A stretch of DNA of 64,000 nucleotides from Meghimatium bilineatum (lineage: Eukaryota; Mollusca; Gastropoda; Stylommatophora; Philomycidae): NCBI GenBank assembly GCA_034231615.1, contig CM067298.1, forward strand, positions 29,642,127 through 29,706,126, given 5' to 3'. The notes below the pieces were generated by a model. That model ran no database searches. It was not told where the DNA came from and worked only from the letters and a program-made list of their open reading frames with translations. Positions 2,208-63,541 of the stretch are shown one piece after another. Both the position numbers and the translations under genes were made by a program. Every line of letters starts with the position of its first letter. Position 1 is the first letter of the stretch.

Positions 2208-2851
2208 ATTTTTTGTCATATGATGTATTCTCCCCCGAATGTTGTCTTCCCAGTGAACTCCGCTCTGTCTTGGGCCATGCGACTTGCATTTCCCAAAGAT
2301 GTAATCATGTTATCTTTAATGTTGTCAGTCCATCATCTTACGGGTCTACACGTTCTCCTTTGCCCAGGTGCTCTGCCCTCCATTATTTGTCTTTCTAAAC
2401 AGTTATTTCTCTTTATATGACCAAACAGGTGTAATTTTCTTTTGCTATTGTGTTTAGTAACCAACACTCTGGCATCTTCAATGTGGTTTATATCTGTTTC
2501 TCTTTTTCTCCTTCCATGATATTCTAAGCATCTTTCTGTAGCATTTCATCTCAAAGATGTTGATTTTCTTTGCTGCTTCTTCGTCTTTCATTCACTTGAA
2601 ACATGTCTATATGTCTGCCTCAGCGTTTCATGTTTAGAACACTCTTGAAGTATATGTTTGGCACTCTGTGCTGCATGTACACATAGCAGTGTTGCCAATC
2701 TTTAACTTTGTATACATCTGACTGCGGAGTCGGTTGTGTCCTGTTCTGAGACGTAGAATTATAACTTGTTCTGATCTGTTCATAATGTGATAGTCATCTT
2801 GTGTTGGTGTTTGTGGCTTTCTTATTGACTTGATCATCTGTTTTTTCTGGT
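2208..2851 (-). repeat. Segment A2: copy 2 of the 644-bp duplication
   Basis: Same nested structure and same internal deletion as 1-644. This copy keeps the continuation of LINE-A to its right (to 3563), whereas copy 1 breaks off at 644. The shared nested junction shows the two were copied as one block rather than inserted twice. Confidence 0.88.
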
Positions 2852-3563
2852 GGTAGGTGATTGATACATCTGGTTGGTCTTCGGCAGCACTTTTCTTAGC
2901 CAGCTAGTCTGCTTTTTCATTTTCTGGTATAACACAGTGAGAGGGTATCCACTGCATGGTTACCCTATACTGGTAAGACAGTTCATTAAGTAGTTTTTGT
3001 AAGTCTGTTAGTTTTCCAGACTAGAGAGCTTGAAGCACTGACCATGCATCTGTCAGGAGTACCACTGGCTGTGGGCCATGGTTGGAGTTCAGAAGTTTTT
3101 GGATTTCTGAATTTTCTAATTGCCTGGATTTCTGTATTATAATTATTGCAGAATTTCCTTATTGATGTTCTGATTGTATCTCTAGGCTTGTGTGGATATT
3201 ATATATATATACACCTGCACCTCCATTCCTCACTGTATTCTGTGCTGACCCATTTGTGTATATTCTGACCCATATGTTTTGTGGATATTTCTCATCCAGG
3301 AAACTGAGGGTGACTGTCCTTCACTGCAAACTGTTCTGTTTGTCCTCGCTTAGTATTCCTTTCATGTGTGCCTGAATGTATATTGGTATTCCATACCTTT
3401 CACTCCACTGGGTTTGTTCTGGTACAGACCTTAAGACGCTGTTAACTTCAGGTAGGTCTGTAAGTTGTCTACGGAGTCGGTTAGCTTGATGGATAAAGCT
3501 GCTTCTTTTCAGTTGCTCCATTGCTAGATTTTGGAATCTTTCCTTCATTCGATGACTTAACAT
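2576..3563 (-). mobile_element. LINE-A 3' fragment (RNase H and C-terminal tail, decayed)
   Basis: Minus-strand similarity to 31395-32450 of the full LINE-A, covering the RNase H domain and the [20 protein letters not shown] tail. Its 5' edge is in the linker before RNase H (SSFIHQANRLRRQL, at 3321-3563). Frameshifts and stops make it non-coding. 3564-3810 holds nothing recognisable. Confidence 0.8.
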
Positions 3564-3810
3564 ACACTGAAACTTTTCTGCTTAACATAATGACAATTAT
3601 GACTCTCAGCCAGATGGACACGTGAAGTTTGGATAAGACCCAGAATGAGGCGATATGTAACAGTTTTGAGTGACGAGAGACACATCTGCATGCGCAATGA
3701 GATTCTTACTTGACTGTCCAACTATGGGACATAGATTACAGTTGTGCTGAGCAAGAGCCTACCTACAAATCAGCACTGATACTGAGCATTCACTGCATAC
3801 TGAAATACAG

Positions 3811-5056
3811 AGTGTGAAAAGAAGTACACTAATAAGAGGAAAGACGTGGATGGAACTTGCTGAGAAAATTATACAAAGTGTATGCACACTGAATGATCTA
3901 GCACATGGTGCGGAATGGGTAAATGTTCCTGTGGATTGTCATACTTCTTTTTGCTTAGTGATAACTCTTGATAGAGAATATAGGAAGAAGTGTCCTATTG
4001 CTGTTGAAACTGATGTGCAGGAATTGATCAGTGAGAATTCCAAGGATGGCGATATGGTTATGATTTCTCTGTTCAACTTGCAGTTTGCAGATGACATTGA
4101 TCTTATGGTTGGTGGTGAGAAAGAACTTACTTTTAAATTTGAAAAAGCTTGCAAAACTTATGGTATGCAAATAAACATAACCGCTTGTGGAATAGTAGCA
4201 GTTTACCTTCCCGCATGTCGCGACTAAGGAGGTTATGGGATGGAGTTGGCTGTCCCATCCCATATAGTGTCAGTGACCCAAAGCCATGCTGAAGTCGGAT
4301 GTGTCAGGCCAAAAGGCACAGATATCACAGCAGTACTATAAACCATGACATAACGCATTCCGTTCTCCGGACGACATCCTGCTAATCTGCAGCGGTTTGA
4401 GAATGAACGCAGAAGAAGAAGAAGAAGAAATAAAAATCATGAAAAGCAAAATAATCATAAACAGAGATAATACGACTCCTGTTAACATCTGGGTGAATGG
4501 ACAGAAAGTAGAAGTTGATACTTTTACATACTTGGGTTCTTATATGAGCAGTGATGAAAGCACTAACAAAGAAATAAAGACTGGACTTGAAATAGCCTCT
4601 GCTGCATTGTCCAGATTAAATACCTTATGAAGAAGAATAAGTACAGAAGTAAAGATAGACCAATACAAATCTAATAATACCTATTCTTTTGCATGGCTGT
4701 GAGAGTTAATTGTAACGATAATGGAGAGGAGAAACAGGCTTTTGGAAACAAATGTTACAAATATTGTGCATCCATTATACAGAACATAAAACCAACATAT
4801 AGGTCTACATGAGAAACAAAATAAAACCACTTGCAGACTAACAAGAACATCTCATAGCAGTGATGAAGCATCACAAACTTGTGTGGTTTGGCCATGCGAT
4901 GAGGCACGATTTTCCCTTTCCAGAACTATCTTACGTGGAATAATTTAGGGTGGAAAAAAGAAGAGGTCAGAGGAAATTATGGATTGATAATATTAAAAAC
5001 TGGATAAGATTAAGATTCTCCACACGAACAAAGAACTGAGAGGCATGGCAAAATTT
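3811..5056 (+). mobile_element. RTE-type LINE remnant, split by a SINE
   Basis: The left half encodes the reverse-transcriptase catalytic region LQFADDIDLMVGGEKEL and YGMQI. After the SINE the frame resumes as IMKSKIIINRDN, VEVDTFTYLGSYMSSDESTN and LEIASAALSRLN, the classic post-YADD region. From 4860 follow MKHHKLVWFGHAMRHDF and VEKRRGQRKLWIDNIK. Several stops mark it as dead. It abuts a MITE on the right. Confidence 0.8.
4170..4431 (+). mobile_element. SINE (GAA-tailed, long type) inserted in the RTE-type LINE
   Basis: It interrupts the RTE frame between YGMQIN and IKIMKSK, flanked by an approximate duplication (aaataaac / aaataaaa). It ends GAGAATGAACGCAGAAGAAG, the 3' end shared with the other SINEs here. 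Related copies: 22160-22430, 23271-23317 with 25702-25925, and shorter ones at 47011-47158 and 54699-54857. No clear tRNA-type promoter boxes were recognised, so the origin of its head is open. Confidence 0.72.
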
Positions 5057-5373
5057 GGTGCATTAAAGGGAGATGTGGCCAGATTTTTATTGAAACAAAT
5101 ACACACATTATTCACAGAAATAACATATTGATAAGATGCATTTCAGAATAGCTAAGACTACTGGTGGATTCAACGATCTGCCACTGAGAGCCCCTCCACC
5201 CCTCCCCTTGGATGCTCAGAGGGTGGGGGGGTTGTAGAGGCTTCCATTGCATAACGTGCAGATCAATCCAAACCTATCAACTTTTTAATATAAGTTCAGC
5301 GAAGTCACAAAAGCTGAATGAAAATATGCATATTAAAAAGTTTAAATCTGGCTACATCACCCCATAATGAACT
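5057..5373. mobile_element. Fold-back MITE, decayed copy
   Basis: The ends (gcattaaagggagatgtgg at left; catcaccccataatgaac at right) are degenerate forms of the inverted ends of the MITEs at 51541-51836 and 57458-57750. The centre has the same GC-rich inverted core (cactgagagcccctcc / ggtgggggggttg) in an AT-rich body. Confidence 0.62.
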
Positions 5374-5499
5374 CAAAATGTGTGCACTGGTGTTTCCAGA
5401 GTAGCACTTCTATGACCTGAAGAGTTATGAGTTTGATGATGATGACATAGTTATTTACACTGATATGTTCTGTTGTTAGACATGTACATAGTTCATGGA

Positions 5500-6110
5500 C
5501 CTTCGCAGCGCGGTTTGTTGGGAATATTATTCGAGAGGAGAGTAGAACTTTCGCTGTAACTGCAAATAGCATGACAATAGAAATAATGACAGTTACCAAG
5601 GCCTGAACTGAATAGGTGCACAGAATGCAACTCATGTCTGCATTCTCAGTGACTCAATGAGCATGGTCAGGAAACTACAAACTGACTGTGTTCATGAACA
5701 GTGGCGTGATGCTGTGAAAGGTCAAGGTTGGAGGAAGTCACATTTATTTTTGTGCTTGGGTTTTGAAGGCAATGAGATTAGCAGGTTCTGCTACTGTATC
5801 AAATGACAGGCAATGGATTCCATCAACATGTTGAACTCGTTGAGAGAAATTGCACAATCAAACAAAATTTATAAAGATGATGTTTCCAATTCCATGTCCA
5901 GAATAAGGGAGATGGGTTTGAAATATGGCATCGCAAGAAACAAACATTATTATGGTCGGCAAAGAATGTTTATTAACCAATAAAGCACTTAACTGTCAGT
6001 TGTTGTGTAATTGTGAATATACTCAGAAGTGATTAGAGTATGCAGTGTATGATGATCTCTCGATTAACTACAGGCCAAAGAAATTAGAGAAGAAAGATTA
6101 ATAGATTTCA
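5500..6110 (+). mobile_element. LINE-D fragment: RNase H and C-terminal tail
   Basis: Broken-frame peptides LSDSMSMVRKLQTDCVHEQW and then FLCLGFEGNEI (the [PGH]xGxxGNE RNase H motif) are followed at about 5890-6000 by SMSRIREMGLKYGIARNKHY. The last motif recurs at 48010-48250, where it leads to a terminal CLDC. Non-functional. 6111-7490 shows no recognisable gene. Confidence 0.6.
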
Positions 6111-7490
6111 GCACATGAAACAACTTCACCATTGCAAACACTATATTCCAACAACAACCAATATGAATATTCATGTGGATGTCACCTTACGGCAAGACCA
6201 CAAATAATAATTACTATATCTGCTTAGAGAACAGGTAGAAATCATTTTATGCACCAAGATTCTCCAAAGTACAGATTGTGACACAGACCATGAACCTCTC
6301 ATGGCAAATTTAAAGTTAAAATTTGAAAAGGTAATTAAAGGTTCAATATGAACCATCTGCTTCAATACAAATAACATACAAGCAGAGTACAATTTTGAAT
6401 TCCACACAAAATTTGAAATGCTTTTAGGGGCGTAGGAAAACTAACACTTGATGAATTAACAATCCAAGAGATACTCTTATCATCACAGCACAAAACCTGG
6501 TACCCAGAAAATGACCAAGAAAAATGTCATTTTTCTAATGTCATTTCATAACCAAACTAAAATGTCCATATTCCCATCCGTGAAAACAAATGCAACATTA
6601 CGATTTCACTAAGGTTATCAGCTTGCAAAGCCCGAGATGTGTGTAGGGACACTAACTACATTCATGATACTTTTCTTCATCAGTCACGATTAATATAAAA
6701 CTGCTGTCCTAATCCTCAACTATATGGAACTGAGAAACCCAGAAATACTTTGCAATCAGAAAAATATTCCTCAAAAATGGATGCCATTACCAAAACTTTT
6801 GAGATTAAGTGGAATTGAACCAGGTTCATTCTAACGACACAGAGTCACCTTGAATTTACCAAAAATTTAGACAGGTTGCATAGAAAAATATTCACTTTAA
6901 CTCTAGAACATGAACTCTTGCTTAGACAAGCAACGGAAACAATAGTTAAATGATGTCTATTTCTGATTCCTGTGTTTTGCAGATGAATGATGTTAGTTTA
7001 CAATCTTTATTTCTTTGGTAAAAGAGTGCATAGCACTATTGTGTATAACACAAACTGCCAACAGCGGCTCAAAATACATTGAGTTTGTGACTGTAGTCAT
7101 CAACAGCATGCTATAGTTGTAGAAGCTGAATATTAATATTATTCAAAATAATTAAATCTTGAAAGAGACCTCCTCAACATTTAGCTGCTACTCAGGCTTG
7201 AGAAATGTTTCAGTGCACATTAATGATAATTTTAATATTAGTTTAATGATATCTTCAATTATTGTCAGATTATGATAAAAGTTTGGGTATGTACTATTTA
7301 TTGTGATTATTTTCTCTCATTTATATGAGAAGTGTTCGAATATAACCCACACATGCTGCATCACCTATGCCAGCATGTGAGGAGCATGACGGCGTCATCA
7401 CTGTTGTAATAATTACATCAATGAACACATAGTCATATTATCATTCTATTCATATGCTTAGTGTCCTGCACAGGCAGTCAACAACATGAC

Positions 7491-7800
7491 CAGTGTGATA
7501 ATGAATCCATCCAAATTTGACCAACAAGTACTGATTCAGTTTCTTACAGCTGAAGGATGTCAACTAACCAACATTCATCAAAGAATGCAAGAAGCGTATG
7601 GTGAATAATGTGATCGAAGACAGTAGTGAAGGATTAGGCAAGTATTTTTCGGGAGTAGCAACATGTAAAAAATTATCTGTAGTGGCCAAGTTAGTCACGT
7701 GTTGTTGTGACCATAGTACAGTTAATTGAAGAAAATTCGTATTATGGTCTGACTCCTACTGAAGAACGGGAAACAAGTAGTCCCAAACATTGAGCTAGTT
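7491..7800 (+). pseudogene. mariner-type transposase N-terminal remnant
   Basis: Peptides KFDQQVLIQFLTAEGCQLTN then IHQRMQEAYGE match the N-terminal helix-turn-helix of mariner-type transposases (K(F)EQR..IKFLxAEG...I(H)xRLxxVYGE). Frameshifted pieces VVVTIVQLIEEN and YGLTPTEER follow. No catalytic domain remains. It lies 100 bp upstream of the first exon in the window. Confidence 0.58.
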
Positions 7801-7899
7801 AAGTGAGCCAATTCTCAACCAGATAGCCCAGATGTTTTGGTATTTCTCCTACATAGCTTGTAACTAATATTTGTTCAAATAATCAACATTTTTCTACAG

Positions 7900-8041
7900 C
7901 ATGGCATGTATTACTTTTAGTGAGAATTCAGATATCATGAGATCGTGGAGGTCATTTAGAGCTAGTGGACATAAAATTGTCAACCACAAACTGTTTGAGA
8001 CCTCTGTAGTTTTTTTAATCCTATGTAGCTGTCTTCTTCTG
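7900..8041 (+). CDS. NaV2: NaV2 exon: end of II-III linker and DIII S1
   Basis: Follows a pyrimidine-rich acceptor (tttttctacag) and ends at ggtaagt. The first base completes a codon from an upstream exon; 47 codons follow. The peptide contains [20 protein letters not shown] then a hydrophobic S1 stretch [13 protein letters not shown], matching the NaV pattern of basic linker, (I/V)EHKYFE and S1. It joins in phase 0 to AFEDIYL of the next exon, reproducing the conserved S1-S2 loop. It begins about 100 bp after a mariner remnant. The previous (II-III linker) exon was not found in the window; that linker is poorly conserved, so it could be present and missed. Confidence 0.85.
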
Positions 8042-8330
8042 GTAAGTAATATCTGACTAATTAATTTTGATGAATTATTTTTATTATAATTTTTTATTAT
8101 TATCCACTATTCTTTGGTAATGTGTATTAGATTTTGTATTAAAATGTCACAGAATGGCAGTTCTATATTTCTACTTGCCGATATGGGAAGTTTTGGAGAG
8201 AAGATAAGAGATTGCAAAGTAAAGTTCTGCTCACTAAAATGCTTCCATTGGCATATCAGCATTATATGGATTGTGCATTTATGTGCTGATGTTTCCAATG
8301 TGCTACACTTAAAATCCTTACAATTTATGG

Positions 8331-8397
<67 letters not shown>

Positions 8398-9893
8398 TAC
8401 TACTATGCATTTGTTCTCAAACTCCTGTTGATTAACACAATGTAGTCCAGATAACAGAATACTTTGCATCATGGTATACAGATGTGCTATATCTGCACCT
8501 TTTCATCAGGTACATTAAACTTCAGCGTGGCTTTTGGTTACATTATTTTTATTGGCCAATATTAGATTTTCACTTTTGTTGTAGTAGGTATGGAACTAAA
8601 GCATCTTTTGGTGAGGCACACATCTTTAACCATGGATATAAGTCCATCTTTGTTAAATCAGGACATATGGCCACTAAAGAATAATAGTCTAAGTTCAGGT
8701 AATCCTGTCATAATAACCTCCAAGAGTACTTTTTGCTGTATTCTTGTTAATGGTCATGCTAAATCAGTGTTTCTCAACCTTTGTGAGACCGTTGCCTGAC
8801 ACAACAATTTTGTATCAAATAGAGAGTCCAGTTCAAACAAATTTTATAAACTCAATAATAACATTACAATTCAAAGAGAAGCTCTTATGGTCTGGTAGAC
8901 AAGTCAAAGTAATCCAACCCAGTGGTTGAGAAACACTGTGGTAAATCATCAGACTTTTAACAAGGAAAAAGTATAGTTTTCTCAAGGTTTATCTGCTGGT
9001 CTCCTCCTTACCTGTTGCTGCTGATAGAAGCAATATGATGATGATAGATTTGACTATTGTATGTACTAGATTATATCACTTTATTTTGCCACAGCAGTTG
9101 CACTGAACATTTGACATCAGATTGGGTATTCATCTGTATGTTGCCGGGACCAATAATAGTTTTCTTCTTTATACATCATCTCACCCTAGGTCTTGTCTCC
9201 ATTCCCTCCCTTTCTCTCGGTTACTCCATCTTCATCATCTCTGCCAAGATGCTGCTGATTTCCTATGTCAAGCTCACAAGATTCTGAATTTTATTTCTCC
9301 ATCGTTTTTATCCTGAAGATGTCCTGTCAGCATCTTGGCAACGTGTTCTTCCATTCATTAAACATAAATTTCATCACCTTAAACTGGATTTAATTTCCAT
9401 CCTCATAATACACAGACACTTCATATCCTATTGCATTTCTCTATCCTCCAAGTAAACCCTATTTCTAGTCCAGTATTTCCCTCTCTCATCGCATTCTGGA
9501 GGAATAGGAACCTTCATAATTTTCTGGTTCTTTCCAATTTGCGCACTTCTGCTGGTCACCTTGGTACTGTTCCTTGTCCCCGGCATTGTTTAACTTGCCT
9601 TTTTGTTATTCTAACTCCCAAGTTTAATATCCCTAAGTTTCATTTTGACATTGTGTACAGTTTCTTATGTGAGGACTGACTTGTGTATGTGGATGCATTT
9701 ATATGCTTGCACATATTTGTGTGGGTACCTTTCATACATGTATTTTTTACTTGTGTTTACTCATATATAGTTTTTGTTTGTATGTATAAATATATACATG
9801 TGCATTGCTAACATTTATGTGTGTACATTTGTGTATGATTTTTTTATTTTGGGACTGTGTACATATGTATGTATGTATATTTACATGTGTGTA

Positions 9894-23000: not shown

Positions 23001-26000
23001 CAGCAGTGCTGTGGATACTACTGAGGTAAGCATTCAATATATGCACAGTGTGCATCATTCAAGTAAATTCTGAATGGTTTCTTAAATATAATTAAGAATA
23101 GTGTATCAATTATATAAACTCGTTTGAAATCTTTACACCAGTGATAGGAGTGCAGGGATAAATTTCCCAATTGGGGTAAACTTTTAAAAAATTTCAGAGG
23201 TAATGATGCCCAAAATAATTCACAAATTCATATTCGAATGAAAACTTTGAAAAAGTCTGGCAAAAGGCAAAAACTCTGCTTCTTCTTCTGCGTGTCTTCT
23301 TAGTACAATTCCTGCTATAGTCCGTTCAGATTCGTTTGCCGAGATGTTAAATTATTTTTATCAAAAACTTATTGTTCATTTGGATTGATCATTTGAAGTT
23401 AGGTTTAGAATAATAATGTCGCTATAGAAATATTTTTTTATCAAAGAAATGTGATCCAGTATCAAAGATACCTTATTTAACCTATATTAAAAAAAAGTTA
23501 ATCTAAATTATAAACAACCGCTGGATTATGTAGATGCTTACATCTCACAGCTGATTATTAAATATAAAGGCATGACCCTCACGGTAGAATGTGCACCGTT
23601 CTAAAAGTAGTTGTTTCCACTGTACATTTGTATAAAGCAATGTTACATATGGAAATTCCCGTTTAGCACCAAATATTATTTTTCCTGAACTTAGAATTAT
23701 GTGAAATCAAAAACGGCTATTGACTCGATTTCAAGTCACAAGTCAGAGGCACGTCTCAATATTTACAGAAAGTAGGCGGCACTAAGCATATTACCTTCTG
23801 CAAGTCTATGTGAGAATGAATCTGAAAGCGAAATATTTTACTGAGCATAACATTGCTATAAAGATTTATCAATACTTCTGCAGAGAGCGTAAAAAGGGAC
23901 ATCTTTATTGTTCTTTATCAAATCCTGAGAAGAGAACAATGCATATTTTAGGTTTGTGTAAACGTTCATTTGATCGAATAGTGGAAGCAAGCGGATATTT
24001 ATTGCCAACAAATTCACGAAAGCAAGGAAGGAAAGAAAAGATAGACAGTTTCGATAAGGACCTAGTAAAAAGAGAAATATGTAGAATGTTTGATAAAAAC
24101 GAAGAAGTGACACTTAGAAAGTTGAAGATTTGGCTGAAAACTAATAACGACATTGAAATATCAAAAACTTTATTATGGAAAACTGTAAGAAATGCAGGCT
24201 TCACCTTTAGAAAGTATGCTGGTGGAAAAAACATTATTTGTGAAAAGCCACATCTGGTAGCTCTTAGAAGCAAGTATTTACGTGAAGTGAAGGGAATGCG
24301 CGAGAATGGTTATGATATTGTGTATTTAGATGAAACTTGGATCAACGCTCATCATACAAATGAAAAGGAATGGCAGTTAGCAGATGGAAGTATTAAAAGA
24401 TCAGTACCAAGTAGTAAAGGGCAACGTTTGATAGTTGCACATGCAGGTAGCAGACATAATGGGTTGTTGCAGAATGCTCATCTAATTTTCATTTCAAAAT
24501 CCATTGACAATAGAGACTACCACTCCGAAATGAATGGGCACATATTCGAAGACTGGATCGAAAAAAGTATTCTTCCAATATTAGATAGACCTTCTTGTCT
24601 GATAATGGACAATGCTTCATACCATAACGTAGTGAACGTAGAAGATAGAATCCCAACATCATCAAGTACAAAAGATGCAATCAAAACGTGGCTCATAAAA
24701 GAACACATACCAGTTACCGACAGGTACTTGAAACCCGAATTGCTTAACCTTGTAAAACAGACACAACGAACAAAGATATTTAAAATAGACAAGTTAATTG
24801 AAGAACATGGTCATAGATATTTGAGACTACCTCCATGTCATGCACACTTAAATCCTATAGAGCTAATTTGGGAAAAAGTTAAAGGACACGTAGCATCTAC
24901 AAATACAACTTTCAAATTATGTGATATTGAGACACTTACAAATCAGGCTCTATCAAATATACATAAAGAGTACTGGGTGAAATGTGAGGATCATGTGTTA
25001 CGCCAAGAAGAGGAATATTGGAAAAAGGAAGGTTTGTTGTTTGTTCAGCCGAAAACAGTAATCGACCTATTTGACTCGTCTGATTATGAATGATCATTAC
25101 TCTGATTAAGTCTACACTAAAAAAAGTTTGATTTGCAAAATTTACAAGTTGATTTGTAAAACATTTCATTGCTCAATACCACCCAAGCAATTCAAAAAAA
25201 TGTTATAAGCAAACCATCAACCATTACTTATAAAAATTAGCCTGCTTGATTCAATACAGAAGTTCAGATATCTTGGATCAACTATTACAGACAAAATTTC
25301 CTTACATGAAGAAATATATGTACTTATTTCAAAGGCAGCGACAACATTTGTGAAACTCACACCAAGAGCATGGAACAATATCAAATTGACTCTACGAACA
25401 AAAGATATATTTTAAATTTTTTTACACCTGCCACCATGTAAAATTTTGTGAACACGCCTATGGGTCATCATTGCACTAGATTACTGTAAAATATTTTGTT
25501 TATGGTCGAAATAATATTTACATGGGCAAACATCAAAAGAATTCGCCGCTTTCAAATAACCGTTACAGCTAGACATCAAGTAACACATATGTTTTCGCGA
25601 CATGGACATTTTAACAACGTATGCCAAAATTCATGTGAAATCATCAAGAACTTTTTGAATTATAAATCATAACATCTCGGCAAACGAATCTGAACGGACT
25701 ATAGTTAACAAGATGTAGTCCAAGAGCGAAATTCATTGTGTCATGGGTTACAGCTTGCCTGCAATATCAGAACCTGTCTGTCTGACATATCTGACTTCTG
25801 CATGGGTTTTTAAGTCACTTTTACTTATGGGATGAGTTAGCCTACTCCACCTCCAAACCTCCTTAGTTACCTATTACAACATGTATGGCAGGTCACATTG
25901 TTGTTAATATTTGCTCCCATTTGGGGCTTTGACAACATGCTGATGTACTGACCAGCAGCTTGAGTGATACATCTTATTAATGTTCTTGAGGAAACTATTG

Positions 26001-29000: not shown

Positions 29001-32000
29001 AGCCATCCGACTCGATGGTGTTTCGAGTCTAATGCTGCCGAAACAGATGTCGACATCAGGGCACAACTCTGGCCCTTGCGACAGGTTTCTTTGTTGTTCC
29101 GCCCACCCATGCCGTGCTTGCAACTAGTTCTAGCACAACATCGGTCTATTGGAACAACATGATAACTGTTATCAAAGGTTACGACTACGGGATTGTAAAG
29201 ATGATGTGCCATGAAGCTTCTATAAGAAGATAACCTCAATATAAAGGCATGTCATCTACTAAGGTTTTCTGTTGCATGGGTGGTTTATCTAGTGAGCCAT
29301 TGGTGAGATCCACATATGCAACCGCATGTGCAAAACGGACCTACCTTTTTTTCAGAAAGCGAAATGAAATAAATCTTCCCTAAATATTTCCTTTGTCCAT
29401 CAGTGATCAGAGGTTGAGATATTTAATTTAGGAGTGTTGTATGGGTGGGGGCTTTCAGTTTGTGGTACGCACATTGGAAAAGGGGGGGCTCTCAGTGGGT
29501 GGCACGCACATCTTTGCATCCGGCAGCAGTCCTTATGGCTGTGACAGACTTACCGTACCACATCTTTAACAAACTTGCGATTACATTAGCCATTTTGTTT
29601 GTAGGACTCAATCGGTAGTCTGTGATGTCTCACAATTTCGGATCAGTGCTGATTTTATAAAACGTTTGCCGGGATAGGACCCTTCTTCTGTAGAAGTAAA
29701 ATGTTAAAAGGAGAATATTAAAAATACCATTGACAGCAAAAATTGAATTAAGAAGTGCTAAAAATAAATTTCAAAGAGATTTGACTCCTAAACAGCATTG
29801 TAATGAGAAAGCTGTTTTTAACCACATAAAGTGATAATAGTCTGAAAAAAAACTACAGGTAGTAGTTGAAGGAGTGGTTGCTGGCAGCAGGAAAAAGGGC
29901 TACCCAAGACAACAATGGACAAAAGACATTTCAGAATGTTTAATCATGTCTTTGGCTACAGTAGCTCAATTTGCTCAGAGTTGTGAATTGTTTAGAATGT
30001 CCATTAATTATGTTCAAGACTATGTTCTGGGAAGAATGTCACCTGAATAATAATAATAATTCATTTTGAGTTTGTTTATTTATACCATGTCTTCTACTCA
30101 CTTTATTGCAGTATGAGGGAAGCTATCTTGATGCATTTCTAACACAAAATCAGAGGAGCTACTATAATACTCTAAAGAAACTTGCAAAAAAGAAGCCGCA
30201 TAAATCCATAAAAAGGCCACAGGTTTGCTGGTAGTTTGTAATGTTTCATATTCCTAGAAGAAAATCTCTGGTAATCTACATAGAAACTATGGATGCTAAA
30301 ATAGATGTAAACAGTGCTTTTTTCTGGGGATATGCCTTATCCCTACCTTTTTTCTCAGGAATATTCTGTTATTTCAGATCTGTTCATTATTTTGTAATGG
30401 ACCCAAAAATATCCACGCAGATAACCTACTTGTACATTGAAAACAAACCAATACAAGAATGATAACGTGAAAGACACAATAATCAACATATTGGGTCCTA
30501 TTATCAACTCGTTTTGTCTAGAATTTTGAACTAAAAATGTCATTTGGATACTGCACCAATATAGAAATCAGATTTAACGATCTCAAGTTGACAGATGCCC
30601 ATACAATTTATACCGAAAGAGTGTTGCCCATTGCAAAACAAAACAGGGTATCTAATTTCCCCATAGAGGGTCGCCCACTTGCGTAAAGTCCTTTCCCATT
30701 GTAAACTTACCGCTCTGATCCCAAACAACATCATTTATCTTGGATGATGCAACTTTTATCATGAATTTGTATTGGCTAGTGATTCAAAGCAGAGTAAGCG
30801 CAGTGACCATTGATCAGAGGCATCAGCCAAGATAAGTGAGACTATAACAATTGGCACAATGGATTAAATAGGTGAAAGGCTTGCCTTTTCTGGAACATTT
30901 ATGCAGAAATGTGGACATTCGTGAATGAAGTAGAAAGTATACGAATTAGTTGTGCTGTGAGTTGGATTAAACCTTTTGTAGATTCTAGATTCCAGATAAG
31001 ATCATTCAAAACTTGGTGTCCACAAAGATGAGCTAAGGGAAAAAAAAAGAATGCTTTCTAGCCAAATATTGAATTTTTGTAAAGTAGGCCCCCTATGTTT
31101 CATATATCAACATTTTTATAAATATTTTAAAATTAAGTAATGAATTGTGTTTGTACATATTTGGAGGGGGGGGGGGTAAACTTTAGGCAATTTTACACTA
31201 AATAAACGTATGCCTACCTTTTTTCCTAGACAAAAACAATGGGTGTAAATGATAAATAATTTAAAAAATGGTTATAGAAAAGCTTTATATGAGTGAAACT
31301 GTTCACCAGGTCCTGATGTCAGCCTCATACTAGCTTGACTTTGATATTTACCAAGTTGTTCTTCTTCTTCTTCTTTCGTTCACTTGAAACATGTCTATAT
31401 CTGTAATTCTGTCTCCTTAATAAAACTCACTGTCTTTTGTAGTTCATACAGTGTCCCATAGAGTTTTGATTCCAGTGTTGTTTCCTCTGGCCAATATGTC
31501 TGCCTCAGCGTTTCACGCTCAGAACACTCTTGAAGTATATGTTTGGCACTCTGTGCTGCCTGTCCACATGTACACATGGCTGTGTTGCCAATCTTGAACT
31601 TTGTATACATGTGACTGTGGAGTCGGTTGTGTCCTGTTCTGAGACGTAGAATTATAACTTGTTCTGATCTGTTCATAATGTGATAGTCATCTTGTGTTGG
31701 TGTTTGTGGCTTTCTTATTGACTTGATCATCTGTTTTTTCTGATGGTAGGTGATTGGTATATCTGGTTGGTCTTCGGCAGCACCTTCCTTAGCAAGTTGG
31801 TCTGCTTTTTCATTTCCTGGTATTCCACAGTGAGAGGGTATCCACTGCATGGTTACTCTATACTGGTACGACAATTCGCTAAGTAGTTTTTTCAAGTCTG
31901 TTAGTTTTCCAGACTGGAGAGCTTGAAGCACTGACCTTGCATCTGCCAGGAATACCACAGGCTGTAGGCCAGAGTTGGAGTTCAGCAGTTTTTTAGCTGC

Positions 32001-35000
32001 CACACTAATTGCCTGGATTTCTGCATCATAATTATTGCATAATTTTCCTGTCGGTGTTCTGATTGTATCTCTAGGCTTGTGTGGATATTCTATATATACA
32101 CCTGCACCATTCCTCACAGCATTCTGTGCTGACCCATCTGTGTATACTCTGACCCATATATCTTGTGGATATTCCTCATCCAGAAAACTGAGGGTGACTG
32201 TCCTTCGCTGCACACTGTTCTGTTCGTCCTCGCTTAGTATTCCTTTCACATGGGTCTGAATGTATATTGGCATTCCATGGCTTTCACTCCACGGGGTTTG
32301 TTCTGGTACAGACCTTAAGGGGCTGTCAACTTCAGGTAGGTCTGTAAGTTGTCTACGGAGTCGTTTAGCTTGATGGATAAAGCTGCTCCTTTTCAGTCGC
32401 CCCATTGCTAGATTTTGGAATATTTCCTTCATTGGATGACTTGGCATACACTGAAACGTTTCTGCTTGAATTAGTACTTTTGTGTCTCTGCGTTCGCCAA
32501 GTGTTTGCATTCTTCCCATTTTCTGCATCTCTGCTATGGGTGTTGATTTCATTGCTCCCAACATTATTCTAAGTGCCTGGTTTTGCACTTTATCTAGATC
32601 TTGTAATGTGGTGTTTGATGCAGGACACCACGCAGCTGAACCATATTCCAGGTGTGGTCTTATGCCTTGCTGGTAAACTTTACTGAGTATATTTCCACTG
32701 GCTCCCCATGTGGTTCCACTTAGTTTTCTCAGGATAGCTAACTTCCTCCTGGCTTTTGTTGTTGCTTTGTTTATGTGCTGCTTCCATGTCAGCTTATCAT
32801 CAAAAGTAACTCCGAGGTATGTGGGTTGTTTGTCTTCTTTCAATAGCTCTCCATCTATCTTGATATGACAAGCTTTTTGTTTTGGTGAGAGGGTAAAGAG
32901 TGTAGTGCTGCACTTATCTGTGTTAATGCTGACACACCATCTATTTGCCCATACGTTTAGGGCATCGATAGCTCTTTGTATTTGTTTAATGGCCACTGTT
33001 GCATGTTCTTCCATGCACCAGATCACCAGGTCGTCAGCATACATTGCCACTTTGATCCCGTGTGGTAGTTCAGAAACTAGGTTATTGATGTAAACCAAGA
33101 AAAGTGTGGGTGACAGGACTCCTCCCTGGGGGACTCCATGACGTAGTAGAACTTTCTTGCTCTTGCGATCATCTAATTGTACCCTGGCTCTTCTATTATG
33201 CAGGTATGCTTTTACTCATTTGTACATTCTTGAGCTAACCCTGCAATTTCACAATTTCTTTAGGAGCCCTTCTTTCCAGACCTTATCAAAAGATTTCCTG
33301 AGGTCTATCCATGCTGCTAGTACCAGTTTCTTATCTTGGAATGCATCCTCAATCTCTTGGGAGATGTAGGTTGCCTGATCTTCAGTAGAGTAGCACTGTC
33401 TGAAACCTGCTTGCTGTGATACCAGAAGGTGTTCACTTTCAAGGTACCACTGCATCCTAAGATTGATAATGCGTTCCATTGTTTTGCATAGACAGCTTGT
33501 GAGGCAGATGGGCCTGTAGTTGGAGACTGTGTTGTCATCTTTTCCTGATTTGAGGAGTGGTATCATTATTGCTTCTCTCCACGCCTGTGGTACATTACCA
33601 GTGGACCAGCTTGTGTTAAAGATCTGCAGTAGCTTTGCTCTTGCTGCAATTCCCAGGTTTCTAATCATTTCATTGGACACTCCATCAGCTCCAGGGGACT
33701 TATTCATTTTCAATTTGGATATTGCATGCTCCAGTTCTCTCATTGTGATTGGTGCCTCCATGACTTCAGGTATAGGTTCGTCTTGTCCAATGTTGTGCTC
33801 TCTCGAACCTCCTGTTGTTTGTCTGGGCTGACTTTGACGTTATTGTCTTCTGCAAAGGAATCTGCAAAGTAATCAGCTGCATGTTTACCTGTTAAAATGT
33901 CTCTATCTTTATAAAGTGTGATCCTGGTATTTCTCCCTGTACCTTCATCATTTAGTTGTTTTACAAGTTTCCATAATTTCCTAGTATCTCTTTCTAGGTT
34001 CAGCGACTCTGTTTTTTCTTTCCAGCTGCTCCGTCTGGCTTGTAACTTGGCTCTTTGAAATTTAGCCTTTGTTTGCTGATATTTGTTGTGATGTTCTTGG
34101 CTAGGTCTGTTCTCAGCCTGCTGTCTAGATGTTTCCATCTCATTTTGCAGCTTTTCCAGTTCATCATTCCAGTAGGTTTTGTAGTTTTTACGTGCCCCCC
34201 TGGGTATGGTTTTACTAGCAGCATGTAGTATACATCTATTAAATTCACTCACTGCTCTATTGATGTCTTTGTCCAAGTTCGTGTCCTTAGCTAGAACACT
34301 GGTTAAATACATTTTCCAGTCTGCCCTTTTATAGTTCCACCTAGTGAGCGTGCTGCTGTCCTTGGTAAATTCATTGTGGATTTCCAGAAATACTGGTCTG
34401 TGGTCACTACCCCTAAGCTGCTTTCCAACAACACGTGTGATGTTCCATTCCAGGCCTGGTGAGTGGAATGCCAGATCTGGTGTAGAGGTGGTGTGCCATG
34501 CTCTCGAGTAGAAGGTTGGTGAGTCTGCTGGCTGGTTAATAAGTATGAGATTATTTTCGTGTAAGTATGAGAATATGATCGTAGCCCCAGCTCTGAGAGT
34601 GGCTGTTGAAGTCACCACACACCATAAGTCTCTCTTTGTCTGGAATTGTGTCTAGTGCCAATGGATTATCATTTGGACAGTAGTAGTTCAGGAGATGGAA
34701 TTCTGCACTGTCTGTTTTTAGGTGGAGCATCTATTATTCTGCCCCTTCCATATATACTTCCAGCTGACATGCGCTGATATTGTTTTTAGCAAGTGTCAGA
34801 ATTCCACCCTTTCGCCTGTCCTTTCTGTCATACCGTTATCACTGGTAGCCTCTGATTTTGAAGGCTATGTCGCTGCTGAGGTGTGTTTCTTGGATACAGC
34901 ATATATTAACTTGTTCTTCACTGAGGACATTTTCAAGTTCCAATTTTTTGCTGTATCCATCTCTTTTACTGTTGACACCCTCAGCATTCCAGTGCATTAT

Positions 35001-38000
35001 TTTTATTGGTCGTTTGTTTGTTTGGCCAGTAGCTCTATTCCCTTGCCTCCTGGCTCCTCGGGGCAATTGAGAAGGACTTCCAGTAACTGAGGTTGGGCCC
35101 TTTTGAGGTATAGGGCCCGGCACTGTCCCTGCCTGAATGTCCGCCACAGGGCAGGCACCATAACTATTTATAAATACAGACATGTTTCCATTGTGTTTTG
35201 TGCGTGGCATCCTGATTATCTGTGCGCCTTTTGGCTGGATGCCTCCGTCTTAAGCACTCTGCTTACTTGGGCAGGACTATGGTCCTGCTCGAGTGGGACT
35301 GCCCGACCAGTCTTAGTTTCCAACCCCTGATGGCTGAACTAAGCCCCATCACCACTTCACAGTGCTGGCCTCGATGGGGTACCAAGTTGTAACTTATAAG
35401 AGAAATATTGTAATATTAAATCTTATATTTCACAGTCTGTGTTATTGTAGTTGAGTGTGTGTCCATATTTATCTAGCTTTCTATACCCCACTGCGTAGAA
35501 TGCTCCTTCAATAGGCATTACACTAAGCCGAAAGCTGAAGTCTCCTGGGTATGAAAGAAAGCTCTGAGAAACCACCCCACTGCATATGGGAAGTAAGAGC
35601 AAATTGCTCACAATTCCTGGAGATAGCAACCTTCTAGCTTTGTGCATAATGCTCACACTCTATGCCTTTGACACATTGGATTGTGTTTTCTGTATAGTTT
35701 ATTTCCCATATACCCCTACTTTCAATCACCAAATAATACTGCTAGGAAACAGCCACCTGTGGACGCAACTGGTAGAGGATCTATATCCCCCAAGTATGAC
35801 ACAGCCGATTTTCACCATTAGTTGCCAAAAAACAGTATCACTAAGTGTAATAAATGTAATTCTATCTATGTATGTGCTACCAAAAAGCAATATAATTCTA
35901 CAATAATAAGAAAAAAACAATGAAAATATATCAGACATGTACTTAGAATGAAGGAAAACAGACTGTCAAATATTAAAATGAGTATCACAAAAGAAAGAGG
36001 AAGACCAAGAGAAACTCTTCGCAGAACAACCATTAAAGAAGGTATGACTGGGTCTCAACAACATGCAAGAATTACACACAGCAGCTTCACATCGCTCAAA
36101 CTGGAGAGCTCTGGTTTCTTTCCTATGCACCGTATTCAGCGAGGAACATAGAAAGATAAATAAATATGACATAAATTAATACTTATGTTGACATTTTCAT
36201 ATACCTTCATATCAAACATTGTATTTTCTAACACATTTGTTGCAGCAAACTCGTTGTGTTCAATGTCTCGAAGTCAGTTTTCTGTACTACTGTATTTTTT
36301 TACTTATAACTATTTATGTTGCACATTATTTTTTCAGAACAAGTTCCAGCTGTTTTTATATAGCTTGGCAATGAGCAGCCGTTTTGAAATGGGCATTATG
36401 CTTATTATATTCTTGAATATGGTTGGCTTGGCTGTAGCTCACTACCGTCAGCCTTTAGCTTTGACAGAGGCACTGGAAATGATGCACATCATCATCACAC
36501 TAATTTTTTTGTTGGAGGCATTAGTAAAAATTGCTGGATTACAGTCCTACTACTTTCGTTTTGCATGGAATATCTTTGATTTCAGTATTGTGGTGATGTC
36601 AGTGATTGGTGAGTGTAAAAGTATTCTTTTTTGTTTCTTCAAAGTACATACAACAATTGTATTTTGGTCTCATCCTTCTTTGAGAGGGAATTGTATTTTA
36701 ATGATATTGTATTTTTCAATACTTGTTCAGCTTCAATTAGTTACAAAATTCTTTTAAAATTATTTTTAATCCATAAGAAATTTCTAACATTATCTTATTG
36801 CAAACCCTGTGGATAATGTAGATGCAATTATCATCTGTCAACACATCAGCTCTTTCATTTCCCCTGACCCCAGCATGACCTGGACAATAGATCCATGTAA
36901 TGCTCTGTGCATTGATGAGAAGAGTAACCCATTCAATTCTGATCATACACTTTTCTATCTGGCGCAGCATACTTTGAAAGTCTGAAAGAATCACTGAGTC
37001 TATTGGTGGTTGTGTCACCAGCCAAGTGAGAGCTGCTGTCACCACTTCTATTTCCATTCTCATACTCTATGTTGTAGTGAGGTACGCAGCTGACTTCTTA
37101 GATAATTTCTTGCAATTTTGGTAGGCCACAAAACCCCAACCACACTTGTTTGTTTCTTGTGTTACTGAGCCGCCTGTGTAAATTATCATATCGTATGGCT
37201 TCTAGTGCTGCAGTCTGAGTTCTTGGATAATTCCCTCTGTTCTGTTGGCAGCTCAGTTGCGACACTCTCTTCCCATCTGTATCACAACTGTTGCGAATAA
37301 CTTTCTCTTTTTGCTAAAGATCATCCATTCACAGCCTCCTCCCACTTCCTCCAGCTCACAAACTCTAAGTAGGGTATCTTCTGCTTCTGCCACCCAGAAC
37401 CTTCCTCTCTTGAAACGCCTTACTTTTGTGCTGTCTAGAGATTGGTGTAAGAAGTGATGATCATTATTGGAGACCTTGAGAGATGATGATATTTTGTTCA
37501 CCAATGGATCTGTGCTTCATGGCGGCTGAAGGTTTTACAGCCAGCTATCGTGCTTAAACCATCATGAACAGCAGCGCATATGGATCAACTACATGAGAGT
37601 GGAAGTCGAGTCTGCCACTGCTATCCTCAAATGGCTCCCTGAGACCTCAATCACCAGAGTAGTTATTGTGTCATACTTCCATCCATGCTACAAAAGATCA
37701 AAAATGGCCAATATCAATATGAGTGAATGATATAAGATCCCCATCAAGGCCAACTCCTTGACGTGGAGATGGGGCTTAGTCCAGCCAACAGAGGCTGGAA
37801 ACTAAGATTGGTCAGGCCAACCCAATATCAAGCAGGGCCACAGTCCTGCCCAGGTGCTAAAATCAGAGATATCAGACCGAGAGGTGCACCAGCAACCATG
37901 GTATCATGCAACCCGAATAGTTGACATGTCTGCACACAAAAATTGTAAAAACTGTCATGGTGCTCACCCTGTGAAGTTCCCCCAGGCAAGAGCAGTGCCA

Positions 38001-59085: not shown

Positions 59086-62000
59086 TTATTCTTCTTCTTC
59101 TGCGATCAGTTTCCTATGCTCATAAGTCTATACAGGAAGGTGGGCCGCCTCCATGAATTCAGTCATCTGCAGGAGGTCCTCACGGTTGCCCCACAGCTTC
59201 ACCTTCAGATCTGTCTCTTGAGGCCATATTTTGGTTCTCACGTCATCAAATAGTGGGCATGTCTGCAGAATATGTTCTGGAGTCTGGGGACCCTTTTGAC
59301 ATGGGCATTAGTCAGTTTGGGCAGCCTTAATTTTGTGGAGATGTGCTTGTAGTCTGCAGTGTCCTGTGCGAAGTCTAAAAATTGTGGTTTGTTGTGACCT
59401 GTTTAGCTTTAGAATAGGGTCCTGTGGAAAGTTACTGCCTGTTCTCTGACTCCATGTATGTTTGTATTTTCCTTTGATGAGGGTTTTTGCTTCAGTCAGT
59501 GATATTCTGTGCTGGAATTGTTCCTTTTTTGCACCTGCTTTTGCCAGTCTGTCAGCTCCTTCATTTCCTGCTATTCCACAGTGTGCAGGGATCCACTGCA
59601 GCACAACTTTATTGTTGGCAGATAATTGATTTAGAAGTTCTACAGTTGTTTTTGTTAGGAGATCTTTAGGTTCCTTTTGGATGGTTTGGAGTACTGACAT
59701 GCAGTCACAAAAGAAGACTATGTTAGCTCCTTTGAGCCTCCGTTCCTCTAGAGCCTTTGATGCTTCCAAGATTGCTTGTAGCTCTGCCCTGTAATTTGTT
59801 GATAATTTGCCAGTAGCGATTGAGAGTTCTAGTTTTGGGGTGTTTGGTATGAGTATTAGTATCCCAGCTCCTCCTTTCTTTACTGCACCCTCTGATGATC
59901 CATCTGTGAAGACATGAATCCACTGTGAGGTAGGGTATTGGGTGTCTAGGTGATAAAGTGTTTTTGCCTTAAGGGCAGTAGGGGTTTCCATAGTTTTGCT
60001 CTCAATGCCTGGTATTGTAAGTTTTGCAGTATATATAGGTGAAGTGTTTGTGATGTTGCAATATGCTTCTAGCTGTTCCCATTCATCCGGATTGTTGCTG
60101 GTTACTTCTTTATTGGCTTTCATAAGTTTTTTTGATAGGTGATTGAAGCTTGGTCTTTTTAGTCTGTTTTTTGTTAGTTCTTTTGTTTTTTCATGCATAG
60201 GGTGATGTTTCAGGCGTCTAAATTTTTCTGTCATTATTGTGATTTTCTCATCCCTGCGGTCTGTTAGGTTTTGTAATCCTGCTGTTGCTTCCATTGATGT
60301 TATAGGTGTGCTCCTTAGTCCTCCTGTTATGATTCGGAGACCTGCATTTTGAATTTTGTCCAGCTTTTGAAGATTGGTATTTGCTGCTGTTGCATATGTG
60401 GTCAATCCATATTCCAGAGTTGGACGAATGTGACCTACATAGACTTGTCTTATGGTTTTTATGTTGGCTCCCCAATCTGTCCCAGATAGTTTTTTCATTA
60501 TTTGTAGTCTGCATGTGGCTTTATTTTCTGTCTCTTCAATGTGTGATCCCCAAGTAAGTCTTTTGTCAAATTTTAGCCCCAGGTAGACTGGGCTGTTTTC
60601 TTTTGGGAGTGGGGTATTGTCTAGAGTGAGAGTATAATTTTCAGGCTTTGTGGAGAGGGTGAAAAGTGTAGTGACGGTCTTACTTTTGTTTATTTGAACA
60701 CCCCAGGTTTTTGCCCACTCTTCAACTTTGTTTATTGCCTCCTGCATTCTAACTTTTGCAACTCCAATGTATTCTGATTGGGTCCAGATAGCAAGATCGT
60801 CTGCATGGAGAGCTCTATGTACATATGGTGTGAATAGTTTTGGCAAATCATCTATAAAAACTATAAAGAGTGTGGGGGACAGAATTCCTCCCTGTGGGAC
60901 ACCTTCTGTTATGTTGACCATTTTACTTTTCATTCCCTGGAGTTTGACTCTTGCATGTCTGCCTCGTAGGAAGCTTTTTATCCACTGAAACATTTTGCAT
61001 CTGATTCCTTTCTGGGCAAGTTTTAGCAATAGCCCCTCTTTCCAGACTTTGTCAAAGGCCTTTGTGAGGTCAAAGAAGGTAGCTAGGAGTTTTGATTTTT
61101 TCTGGAAAGCATCTTCTATTTCCTGGGCAAGGTATGTTGTTTGGTCCTCAGTGCATCTGTGTTTTCTGAAGCCTGATTGGCAGTCATCTAGAAGATTGTT
61201 TTCCTCCAGGTAGTTTAAGAGTCTGTTATTCACCATTTTTTCCATGACCTTTCCTAAGCAACTAAGTAGACTGATAGGGCGGTAACTTGTTTTGTTGGTT
61301 TTTGGTTTTCCTTTCTTGGCAATTGGAATTATTTCTGCCTCTTTCCATTCTTCTGGGAAGATCCCTTGCGCCCATGATTCATTAAACAGGTCTAGGATTC
61401 TGCTTCTACCCACAGGACCTAGGTGTTGGAGCATTTCATTTGTGATTCCATCGGGTCCAGGGGCTTTCTTCTTTTTTAGATTTTGAATTGCCATGTTAAG
61501 TTCTGATTTGTGAAAAGGTGAGTTCATTGTGCCTGGGCAAGGTTGATGTTTATTTACAAGGTTTTTTGTCTCTCGTCTTACTTCAGCAGTTCTTGTTCTA
61601 GTTATCTTAATTTTGCTTTCTTCAGCATAGGAGTCTGCTAGAATATTTGCAGCTTGTGTGCCAGTGTAGGACTTCCCCTTGTCTTCTATGATGATACTAC
61701 TTTGGGGGTTGTTTTCTTCATTGAGGCACTTGATAAGTTTCCACATATTTGTTGAGTCTTTTTCCATGTTGAGTGTTGCTGTTTTTTCTTTCCAGCTGGA
61801 TCTAATGCTGTTTAGCTTTTCTCTCCTGAAAATTGCTTGCAGTCTATTGTGTTCAATGATATTGGTTTCTGTTGGTCTAGTTTCCATCTTGGATCTTGCA
61901 GCAGAGGCTTCATCATGCATAGCCTGGAGTTTTTTGTTCCAGAAGGGTTTGTAGTTTTGTCTTCTTCCTCTAGGTATACTGTTGTTGGCAGCTTCCAGGA

Positions 62001-63541
62001 TTATTCCTGTTATTAATTTTGCATCTTTCCGTATATTTCTTGCTGTAAGATGTGTTATTAGTTTTTCCTCTGTACGGCGTTGGTAAGTGTCCCAGTTAGC
62101 CTTCTTGTAGTTCCAGCTAGCGATTTTGTGTTGTTGCTTTTCTGTCTTGTGGTTCCCCTTTATTGTTAATATTACGGGCTTGTGGTCACTCCCACCAAGC
62201 TGTTGTGCCACTATTCTTTCTGTCACAAGTTGGATGTCCTCTGTTGCAATGGCAAGATCTGGAGTGCTCTGAGATTTCCATCGTCTGGAGTAAAAGGTTG
62301 GCTCTGATAGATGTTCATTTATAAGGATTAGCCTATTTTCTATCATCCAGTCTTCTATTTCTTCTCCTCTCAAGTCCATAGTTGGGTAACCCCAGTTTGG
62401 GGAATGACTGTTGAAATCTCCAACTATAATATGATTTGATGATGTGAGAGGTATTGTCCTGAGGTGTAATTTTTTGTTGTTTGGGCAGTAGAAATTTGTG
62501 ATAATCAGTGGTTCTGGGGTTGTATGTAATTTGATGGTGAGATGTTCTGAGTCCTCTGGGTTACGTGCGATTTCTGTAGTAGGTATGTTATTTCGTACCA
62601 TTGTGATGATCCCTCCTTTGTGGCCTAATCTATCTAATCTGAAGCATTCAAAACCTCTGATGGAGAATCTGTTGCTGTCATTAAGATGTGTCTCCTGAAT
62701 GCACAAGACATCAATCTTTTGCTTTTGAAGGAAATTCTGCAGTTCTAGTTTCTTCTTAGCCACACCCTCACTGTTCCACTGCATAATTTTGATTGTGTTT
62801 TTGTTGTCATGATTGGTTTGGCCGGTTGCTCTACTCTGTTTAATCCCGGGTCCCCGATACACAGAGTCATCATCAGTAGCTTTTGGTGGACCCATTCGAG
62901 GCTGGGGGTCCTGAGCTCCTCCTGCCTGGCGATGAATCACAGGGGCAGCCCCACTTCGTGTAACGAATCCGAGCATAGTCATTAACTGTATAATGCGTAC
63001 ATGTCCCATTTCCATTGCTGGGTACCCACGCCTGTTCAGGCTGACATGTTCCGTCTTCGGTGAGGGAAGTTATGGAGTCTTCCTATCCATGTTCTTGGAC
63101 ATCCTAGCACTGCCCGCAAGACATCGGAGGTTTGTGGAGTGGACTTCTCCTATTTTACTATCAGGGTTGTCTCCCATAGCCTCTCCATCTCCCGATGGTG
63201 ACTGCAAGGCAGCAATTTTTTGGGGAAAAAAAAAATCCCCCCCCCCTTTCCCAACGTGCTCCTGGCATGGAGTTGTAACTCCACACCAACAGCGTGAGCT
63301 TATAGCGGCTCATACTCGCTTGAAGCTGCCCGTCACTGGACACATGGGGTATTTCAGTGGGGATATCAGCACCGACTGATATCCCGCCCCGTCCTGGTAG
63401 GCAACAGCACCGGTTTCGTCCGCGGCTGCTTAATTGCAGCAAACACTCCATATATGGACATTTATGGAGTGCCCTCCACCATCCGCCACCTGTGGACGCG
63501 CCTGGTAGGGGTCGGTAGCCCCCCCCAGGATATATGGTTAT
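59078..63541 (-). mobile_element. Full-length LINE-B, 4440 bp, with 12-bp target-site duplication
   Basis: ATATATGGTTAT at 59078-59089 and 63530-63541 bounds 59090-63529. On the minus strand: a GC-rich 514-nt leader starting CCTGGGGGGGGCTACC, one long ORF, a 38-nt trailer (ending CTGATCGCAGAAGAAGAAGA). No ORF1. The leader contains stem-forming words (CCUGG...CCAGG, CUCCAUA..UAUGGAG). Antisense to the channel gene, 5.7 kb past its stop. Confidence 0.94.
59128..63015 (-). pseudogene. LINE-B polyprotein (EN-RT-RNase H), one internal stop
   Basis: 1235 codons from ATG 63015 to TAA at 59308-59310, then 59 more in-frame codons to TAG at 59128-59130. APE endonuclease from about residue 75: [111 protein letters not shown] (His for Tyr in YADD, both Asp kept). 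RNase H from about 1034: VFTDGSSEGAVKKGGAGILI, RAELQAI, FFCDCMSVLQ, IPAHCGIAGNEGADRLA. The stop falls just before CPCQKGPQTPEHILQTCPLF, so only the terminal cysteine motif is cut off. I-like LINE group by domain content. Confidence 0.95.

Follow-up and report, generated by a model that had tools for sequence, protein, structure and literature searches.

The DNA analysed here, called the window throughout, is a 64,000-nucleotide stretch of the Meghimatium bilineatum genome (1.6 Gb in 32 contigs). It contains exons of a voltage-gated-type ion channel gene, with an Ion_trans domain in all three of the frames tested and a GPHH domain in one, and it also contains two copies, on opposite strands, of a LINE that we call LINE-A. 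The sequence-only reading of this DNA proposed that the two copies begin at the same base, that their first 75 nt (the head) align without gaps and that in copy A this base lies at the inner edge of a target duplication. All three observations were borne out: the common first base, C1, is at 37739 (forward strand) in copy B and at 35379 (reverse strand) in copy A, the alignment of the heads is ungapped over 75 nt, and the exact sequence CAACTTGGTA adjoins C1 of copy A on its 5' side and occurs again after the (GAA)n tail at 31349-31358. The features of the two copies are as follows.

31349..31358, no strand: target duplication, 3' side of copy A
31359..35379, reverse strand: LINE-A copy A with its two ends and a (GAA)n tail
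31395..34651, reverse strand: LINE-A ORF pieces of copy A (endonuclease, reverse transcriptase, RNase H; by Pfam), frame broken
34839..35249, reverse strand: N-terminal ORF piece of copy A, starting at element nt 131
35305..35379, reverse strand: LINE-A head of copy A (head alignment, model R1)
35380..35389, no strand: 5' member of the target duplication of copy A, adjoining C1
37739..37813, forward strand: LINE-A head of copy B, the candidate HDV-like ribozyme, from C1 to the 3' end of P2 (head alignment, model R1, descriptor scan)

The broken frames of copy A scored above the Pfam cut-offs for reverse transcriptase and RNase H, whereas the endonuclease reached 24.9 bits against a cut-off of 27.4. 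As the N-terminal frame begins at nt 131, there is no evident room for a separate ORF1. A sister element, LINE-B, lies on the reverse strand at 59308-63069 and has endonuclease, reverse transcriptase and RNase H in one frame of 1,253 residues, with 41% identity to LINE-A over 550 residues. Among 120 of 525 LINE-B relatives, the eight that had organism names were all from gastropods. LINE-A is probably a single-ORF endonuclease-reverse transcriptase-RNase H LINE of the Ingi clade. In Batillaria and two sacoglossan gastropods Ingi sequences are described as very numerous and other non-LTR families as few (PMC11203168), and LINE-A resembles these gastropod elements in having RNase H and in belonging to a type that is very numerous in some gastropods. 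It differs from them in the ribozyme candidate described below, as that survey reports none and its main text does not contain the word.

LINE-B has a fixed 5' start of its own (window 63529 downwards, reverse strand), which consists of CCTGG, a G run of variable length and then CTACYGACCCCTACCAGG. The start is the same in the window copy and in 12 of 12 further copies (L140-L151), which were taken from the 39 other places scored. Its CCTGG/CCAGG could form a short P1, but no HDV-like fold was made out. Elsewhere in the window there is a 644-bp direct repeat (1-644 and 2208-2851, 99.7% identity), parts of which match LINE-A 3' regions at 93-94%, and an open frame of 435 residues at 23786-25093 (forward strand), which we take to resemble a DDE-type transposase.

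LINE-A heads are abundant in the genome. A pattern for nt 34-68, with at most two mismatches allowed, matched 4,923 plus 4,914 genome places, and the reversed control matched 0 plus 0. DNA searches with the two heads gave 2,628 and 919 candidates, of which the best 40 in each case were scored; these copies were 95-98% alike. The head was present in all 60 of the loci kept from these two BLAST searches. Reading of loci L001-L090 gave 91 heads, comprising 55 distinct 75-mers; 82 of the heads had distinct upstream 30-mers, and these are not all independent (L044 and L051 belong to one composite). L010, which has a 1-nt deletion, was dropped by the ungapped filter. In the 82 heads homology sets in sharply at base 1, which is C in 76 of them. 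Information content was 0-0.6 bits per column in the 25 upstream columns and rose to 0.95-1.9 bits in the element's first 12 columns. Upstream there is a weak signal, T-rich and then A-rich, at -15 to -10, whose position would suit an endonuclease site bordering a 10-14-bp duplication on its distal side.

One composite, with two distinct 75-mers, accounts for ten of the 60 BLAST loci; these lack C1-C3 and are homologous from nt 4. In L044, L046, L048, L049, L050 and L051 (around locus position 1500), TGG replaces C1-C3 and the common upstream sequence is an antisense piece of LINE-A ORF2. The composite may have multiplied as such, or an insertion into another copy may then have been duplicated.

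LINE-A coding similarity was found within 1.5 kb downstream of 61 of the 82 heads and was not found in the other 21. An exact repeat of the 9-13 nt upstream of the head occurred within 1.5 kb downstream in 17 of the 82, and in 15 of these the repeat was 11-13 nt long; the 15 leave out L019 (9 nt) and the doubtful L005 (also 9 nt). The result was a set of 15 short elements of 198-624 nt that have the LINE-A head and 11-13-bp target duplications touching base 1. Their tails are GA-rich in 13 cases (12 clearly of the GAA type found on LINE-A and one GAAGAAA), L004 ends in an A run and L015 has no tail. The short non-autonomous derivatives with GAA-type tails and exact duplications are L008, L014, L027, L029, L032, L036, L039, L054, L060, L071, L077 and L079. 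The head is also found on elements of about 204-217 nt that either end in an A run (L004, L019) or are tail-less (L015).

The sequence-only reading also held that the head forms helices P1, P2, P3 and P4 in the order of the hepatitis delta virus (HDV) ribozyme, with P1 and P2 making a pseudoknot. We examined this structure in an alignment, A5, of 75 distinct heads, composed of the 55 distinct 75-mers and 20 older copies (20 of the 39 other places of one further search). The arrangement was upheld, P2 and P3 by covariation and P1 and P4 by pairing only. The parts of the fold are given for copy B, all on the forward strand, with the fraction of A5 cells that pair.

37739..37745, forward strand: P1 5' strand, nt 1-7, pairing with 37768-37774 (92.1% of cells paired)
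37748..37753, forward strand: P2 5' strand, nt 10-15, forming the pseudoknot with 37808-37813 (97.6% of cells paired)
37755..37757, forward strand: P3 5' strand, nt 17-19, pairing with 37765-37767, with L3 between (97.3% of cells paired)
37765..37767, forward strand: P3 3' strand, nt 27-29
37768..37774, forward strand: P1 3' strand, nt 30-36
37775..37780, forward strand: J1/4, CUUAGU, nt 37-42, which could pair with 37801-37806 and so bury C64
37781..37786, forward strand: P4 5' strand, nt 43-48, pairing with 37793-37798 (93.3% of cells paired)
37793..37798, forward strand: P4 3' strand, nt 55-60
37801..37806, forward strand: competing helix, 3' strand (ACUAAG, nt 63-68)
37802, forward strand: C64, the putative catalytic base in J4/2 (C-U-A-A); 74 of 75 A5 rows have C here
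37808..37813, forward strand: P2 3' strand, nt 70-75
37832..37849, forward strand: GCAGG..CCTGC hairpin beyond the 3' end of the head, nt 94-111 (75 of 82 heads have the pattern)

The HDV and drz-agam ribozymes have the helix order P1-P2-P3-P4, a nested pseudoknot and C-N-A-A in J4/2. The LINE-A head has the same order and the same nested pseudoknot, and C64-U-A-A occupies the place of J4/2 and fits the C-N-A-A rule. Unlike the HDV ribozyme, it lacks a P1.1 of two C-G pairs. P1 starts with CCC, and the consensus heads of five subfamilies (at least three rows each) keep P1, P2, P3 and C64. The downstream hairpin, whose counterpart in copy A is at 35271-35288, has an inner pair that is compensatory between subfamilies (C-G in 54 of 75, U-A in 19, U-G in 2) and may belong to the 5' UTR fold.

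The two compensatory differences between the window copies from which the proposal began, A-U to G-C at 15-70 and U-A to A-U at 17-29, are real and also distinguish two subfamilies, and covariation at P2 and P3 is present over the 75 distinct heads. Standard pairs make up 94.6% of the 1,642 cells of the HDV-like structure. Double changes affected 70 cells, against a shuffle mean of 27.9; none of 500 shuffles reached this value and slid versions of the structure gave at most 7. Only 5 pairs had any double change, a number that 238 of 500 shuffles reached and that some slid versions equalled or passed (up to 7); the 25 further pair types are likewise no more than shuffles give (216 of 500). P2 varies at 10-75 (GC/GU), 11-74 (GU/GC/AU), 12-73 (CG/UG) and 15-70 (AU/GC), and has 36 double-sided and 36 one-sided changed cells. 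All possible stems were tested. Of 1,891 stems of six bp, 9 had at least 90% of their cells paired, and P2 headed these when they were ranked by covarying cells; in the same ranking P3 headed the 90 three-bp stems, out of 2,278, that reached this level of pairing. The complete fold is beyond RNAalifold, which gave P2, P3 and a small hairpin outside the model but neither P1, which conflicts with P2, nor P4.

Few of the double changes are independent: there is about one at 15-70 and one at 17-29. Seven column pairs were at least 90% paired and had five or more double-changed cells, of which only 15-70 and 17-29 lie in the structure; as the other five fall outside it, linkage within subfamilies must be strong. 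Nucleotides 17, 20, 29 and 50 change together between subfamilies and the copies have common ancestry, and hence P3 has about one event behind it. In a third subfamily (L068, L078, L090) the G-C of one subfamily at 15-70 is combined with the U-A of the other at 17-29. Thus, the two compensations were separate events or have been separated by recombination.

The folding energy of copy B was better than that of 200 of 200 shuffles (z -2.98) and that of copy A better than 177 of 200 (z -1.34), and folding energy alone is not decisive. No minimum-energy fold contained P2; a program limited to nested pairs has to choose between P1 and P2. A descriptor composed after the structure had been seen found one place, copy B, on both strands of the 64-kb window and none in eight one-strand 64-kb Markov sets; we read the missing of copy A as owing to the two G-U pairs in its P4. 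Model R1 gave the copy B head 106.4 bits, by construction, and a further match at window 16689 (14.1 bits, E = 0.55) was taken as chance. From the alignment, the HDV-like fold is well supported.

Searches with existing models and variant patterns gave little. The Rfam HDV family had no match at gathering score in the window and none at E ≤ 10 in 35200-37900. The best match, to Rubella_3 (28.8 bits, cut-off 35), runs antisense across the downstream hairpin and the 3' portion of the copy A head and was put down to chance. Searches with RF01788 found no match in the genome, nor any in 14 control genomes, and so carry no weight. A pattern scan of IMG/VR gave 44 stretches in which the best model R1 match had E = 2.5, again chance, and the IMG/VR protein scan gave five loci that matched the RNase H part only (26-38%). 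When the 3' strand of P1 in the pattern was changed at three places, with the same P4 and J4/2, 14 genome places were found, which we presume to be degenerate or recombinant copies. A pattern with a changed J1/4 matched 0 genome places, which tells little.

Known LINE ribozymes offer close parallels. It had been thought that no HDV-like ribozyme was described for an RNase H-bearing LINE, a claim that falls, as the trypanosomatid L1Tc and ingi elements have RNase H and possess HDV-like ribozymes, experimentally active and contained in the first 77 or so nt (PMC4035085). The LINE-A head resembles the L1Tc ribozyme (L1TcRz, Pr77) in occupying the first 77 or so nt of an endonuclease-reverse transcriptase-RNase H LINE and in its CCC start. 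L1Tc itself begins with CCCTGGCTCAGCCGG, as given by a printed primer. Both heads are also kept in short non-autonomous derivatives, which in the trypanosomatids are NARTc, RIME and SIDER; NARTc and RIME are derived from L1Tc and ingi and retain Pr77 (PMC4035085). A further likeness lies in the effect of downstream sequence on folding, which is described for Pr77 (PMC4035085; PMC4748587), L1Tc being proposed to switch fold once downstream sequence is made (PMC4035085). The host of LINE-A, unlike that of L1Tc, is an animal. In L1Tc, Pr77 is promoter and ribozyme together, with a downstream element CGTG at +25 to +28; in LINE-A, by contrast, CGTG is one base off (24-27) and present in only 33 of 82 heads. 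Homology by letters was not significant over the 28 nt of Pr77-type sequence compared, as 815-3,375 of 20,000 shuffles scored as well for the four head consensuses, and with CCC kept 3,127-9,430 of 20,000 equalled the likeness. The Pr77 letters in J1/4, L3 and P4 differ from those of LINE-A.

Among other elements, Baggins has RNase H and R2 lacks it. Baggins is listed with the elements that are cleaved at the 5' end (PMC3774820). The LINE-A head is like the R2 ribozyme in its place at the 5' end of a non-LTR element, a P1 of 6-7 bp, a P2 of at least 5 bp and a catalytic C (PMC3774820; for LINE-A, a candidate), and R2 likewise has short derivatives with a 5' ribozyme (PMC3414825). R2 inserts in the 28S gene and its ribozymes have a J1/4 of 0-2 nt (PMC3774820), whereas LINE-A lies at many sites and has a J1/4 of 6 nt. 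A search of the open-licence literature gave no HDV-like ribozyme paper mentioning gastropods, and among the matches listed the papers that joined HDV-like ribozymes and ingi concerned trypanosomatids or R2 and no animal Ingi element.

Four weak points had been conceded when the ribozyme was proposed: the C at position 1, a long J4/2, the want of a clear P1.1 and the competing 37-42/63-68 pairing. All four are real features of the head, but the first is no weakness because in related trypanosomatid ribozymes cleavage was mapped before C1 (PMC4035085), and such a C is normal there. P1.1 is at best one pair, G22-C37 (53 of 55 distinct rows), its second place being U-U in 54 of 55, and J1/4 is 6 nt (CUUAGU) unless P4 is extended. 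The competing helix is near-invariant (97.8% paired) and would hide C64; its addition stabilised P4 by about 5-6 kcal/mol in five of five sequences. A structure containing this helix paired 94.7% of cells, against 94.6% for the HDV-like one. Its double-changed cells numbered 34, and P3, a helix present in both structures, contributed 30 of these. The competing helix itself had no double-sided change and four one-sided changes in 450 cells, and covariation therefore speaks neither for nor against it. Its invariance is partly selection, as part of the rows were retrieved with a pattern fixing these letters.

Could the head act without cutting RNA? It might combine an internal promoter, its start site fixed, with a 5' UTR that has a pseudoknot and that binds an element protein or aids translation. 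A fixed start site alone would also yield uniform 5' ends, P1.1 and J1/4 fit a ribozyme poorly, and the L1Tc precedent of a promoter with a CGTG element has its echo in the 33 heads noted above. The remaining 49 of 82 heads do not have CGTG at 24-27, however (AGTG in 34 and AGAG in 10), the covariation in P2 and P3 acts at the RNA level and C64-U-A-A sits where J4/2 should be. We consider this account unlikely as a replacement for the ribozyme; given that promoter and ribozyme coexist in L1Tc, a promoter may be an addition rather than an alternative.

It is much less probable still that the head in fact folds into P1 and a P4 hairpin lengthened to 12 bp, in which AA is bulged (37-48/55-68), and makes no use of the pseudoknot. 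The energy gain and the near invariance of both strands of the extension would suit such a hairpin, but the retrieval pattern accounts for part of that invariance, the extension has 0 double-sided changes against the 36 double-sided cells of P2, and the compensatory change at 15-70 has no explanation without P2. We give hardly any credence to the last account, that a once active ribozyme persists in LINE-A as a decayed or domesticated relic. The weak P1.1 would agree with decay, and some trypanosomatid SIDER ribozymes are inactive despite adequate folding (PMC4035085). Against this, the five subfamily consensus heads keep P1, P2, P3 and C64, and the best 40 copies from each DNA search are alike, at the 95-98% given above.

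The LINE-A head begins at a fixed base, has a covariation-supported fold, has been amplified and is retained in short derivatives. We think it likely, judging from these sequence features, that the first 75 nt are an HDV-like self-cleaving ribozyme of the L1Tc/ingi kind that releases the element RNA at C1, and we would read the near-invariant pairing as a competing or later fold of that ribozyme. LINE-A would be transcribed from its own promoter or within a host transcript, and the head RNA would fold into P1-P2-P3-P4, the step for which the alignment gives support. C64 would then serve as the catalytic base for a cut directly before C1. The released RNA would begin exactly at C1, which fits the junctions read, the composite apart. 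Target-primed reverse transcription would insert the element with a duplication touching C1 and with the same first base, the arrangement seen in the sequence.

A bolder proposal, which we put forward only tentatively and hold to be possible rather than probable, is that the ribozyme at the 5' end is an ancient possession of the Ingi clade, common to its kinetoplastid and animal elements. In this genome the LINE and the short elements derived from it would have carried the ribozyme to nearly 10,000 places, giving many host transcripts the potential to cut themselves. The near-invariant CUUAGU/ACUAAG helix would serve as an inbuilt off switch, hiding the catalytic C once the cut had been made.

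If the LINE-A head is active, the L1Tc/ingi ribozyme would be extended from trypanosomatids to an animal element and, if the clade assignment holds, the Ingi-type ribozyme would have a new host group. Whether LINE ribozymes are inherited with the LINE clade or arise repeatedly would then become testable. The thousands of fixed-start copies, together with the short derivatives, form a rich natural set of mutants. Activity would also mean a genome full of potential self-cutting sites, and would raise the question of how host transcripts cope with them.
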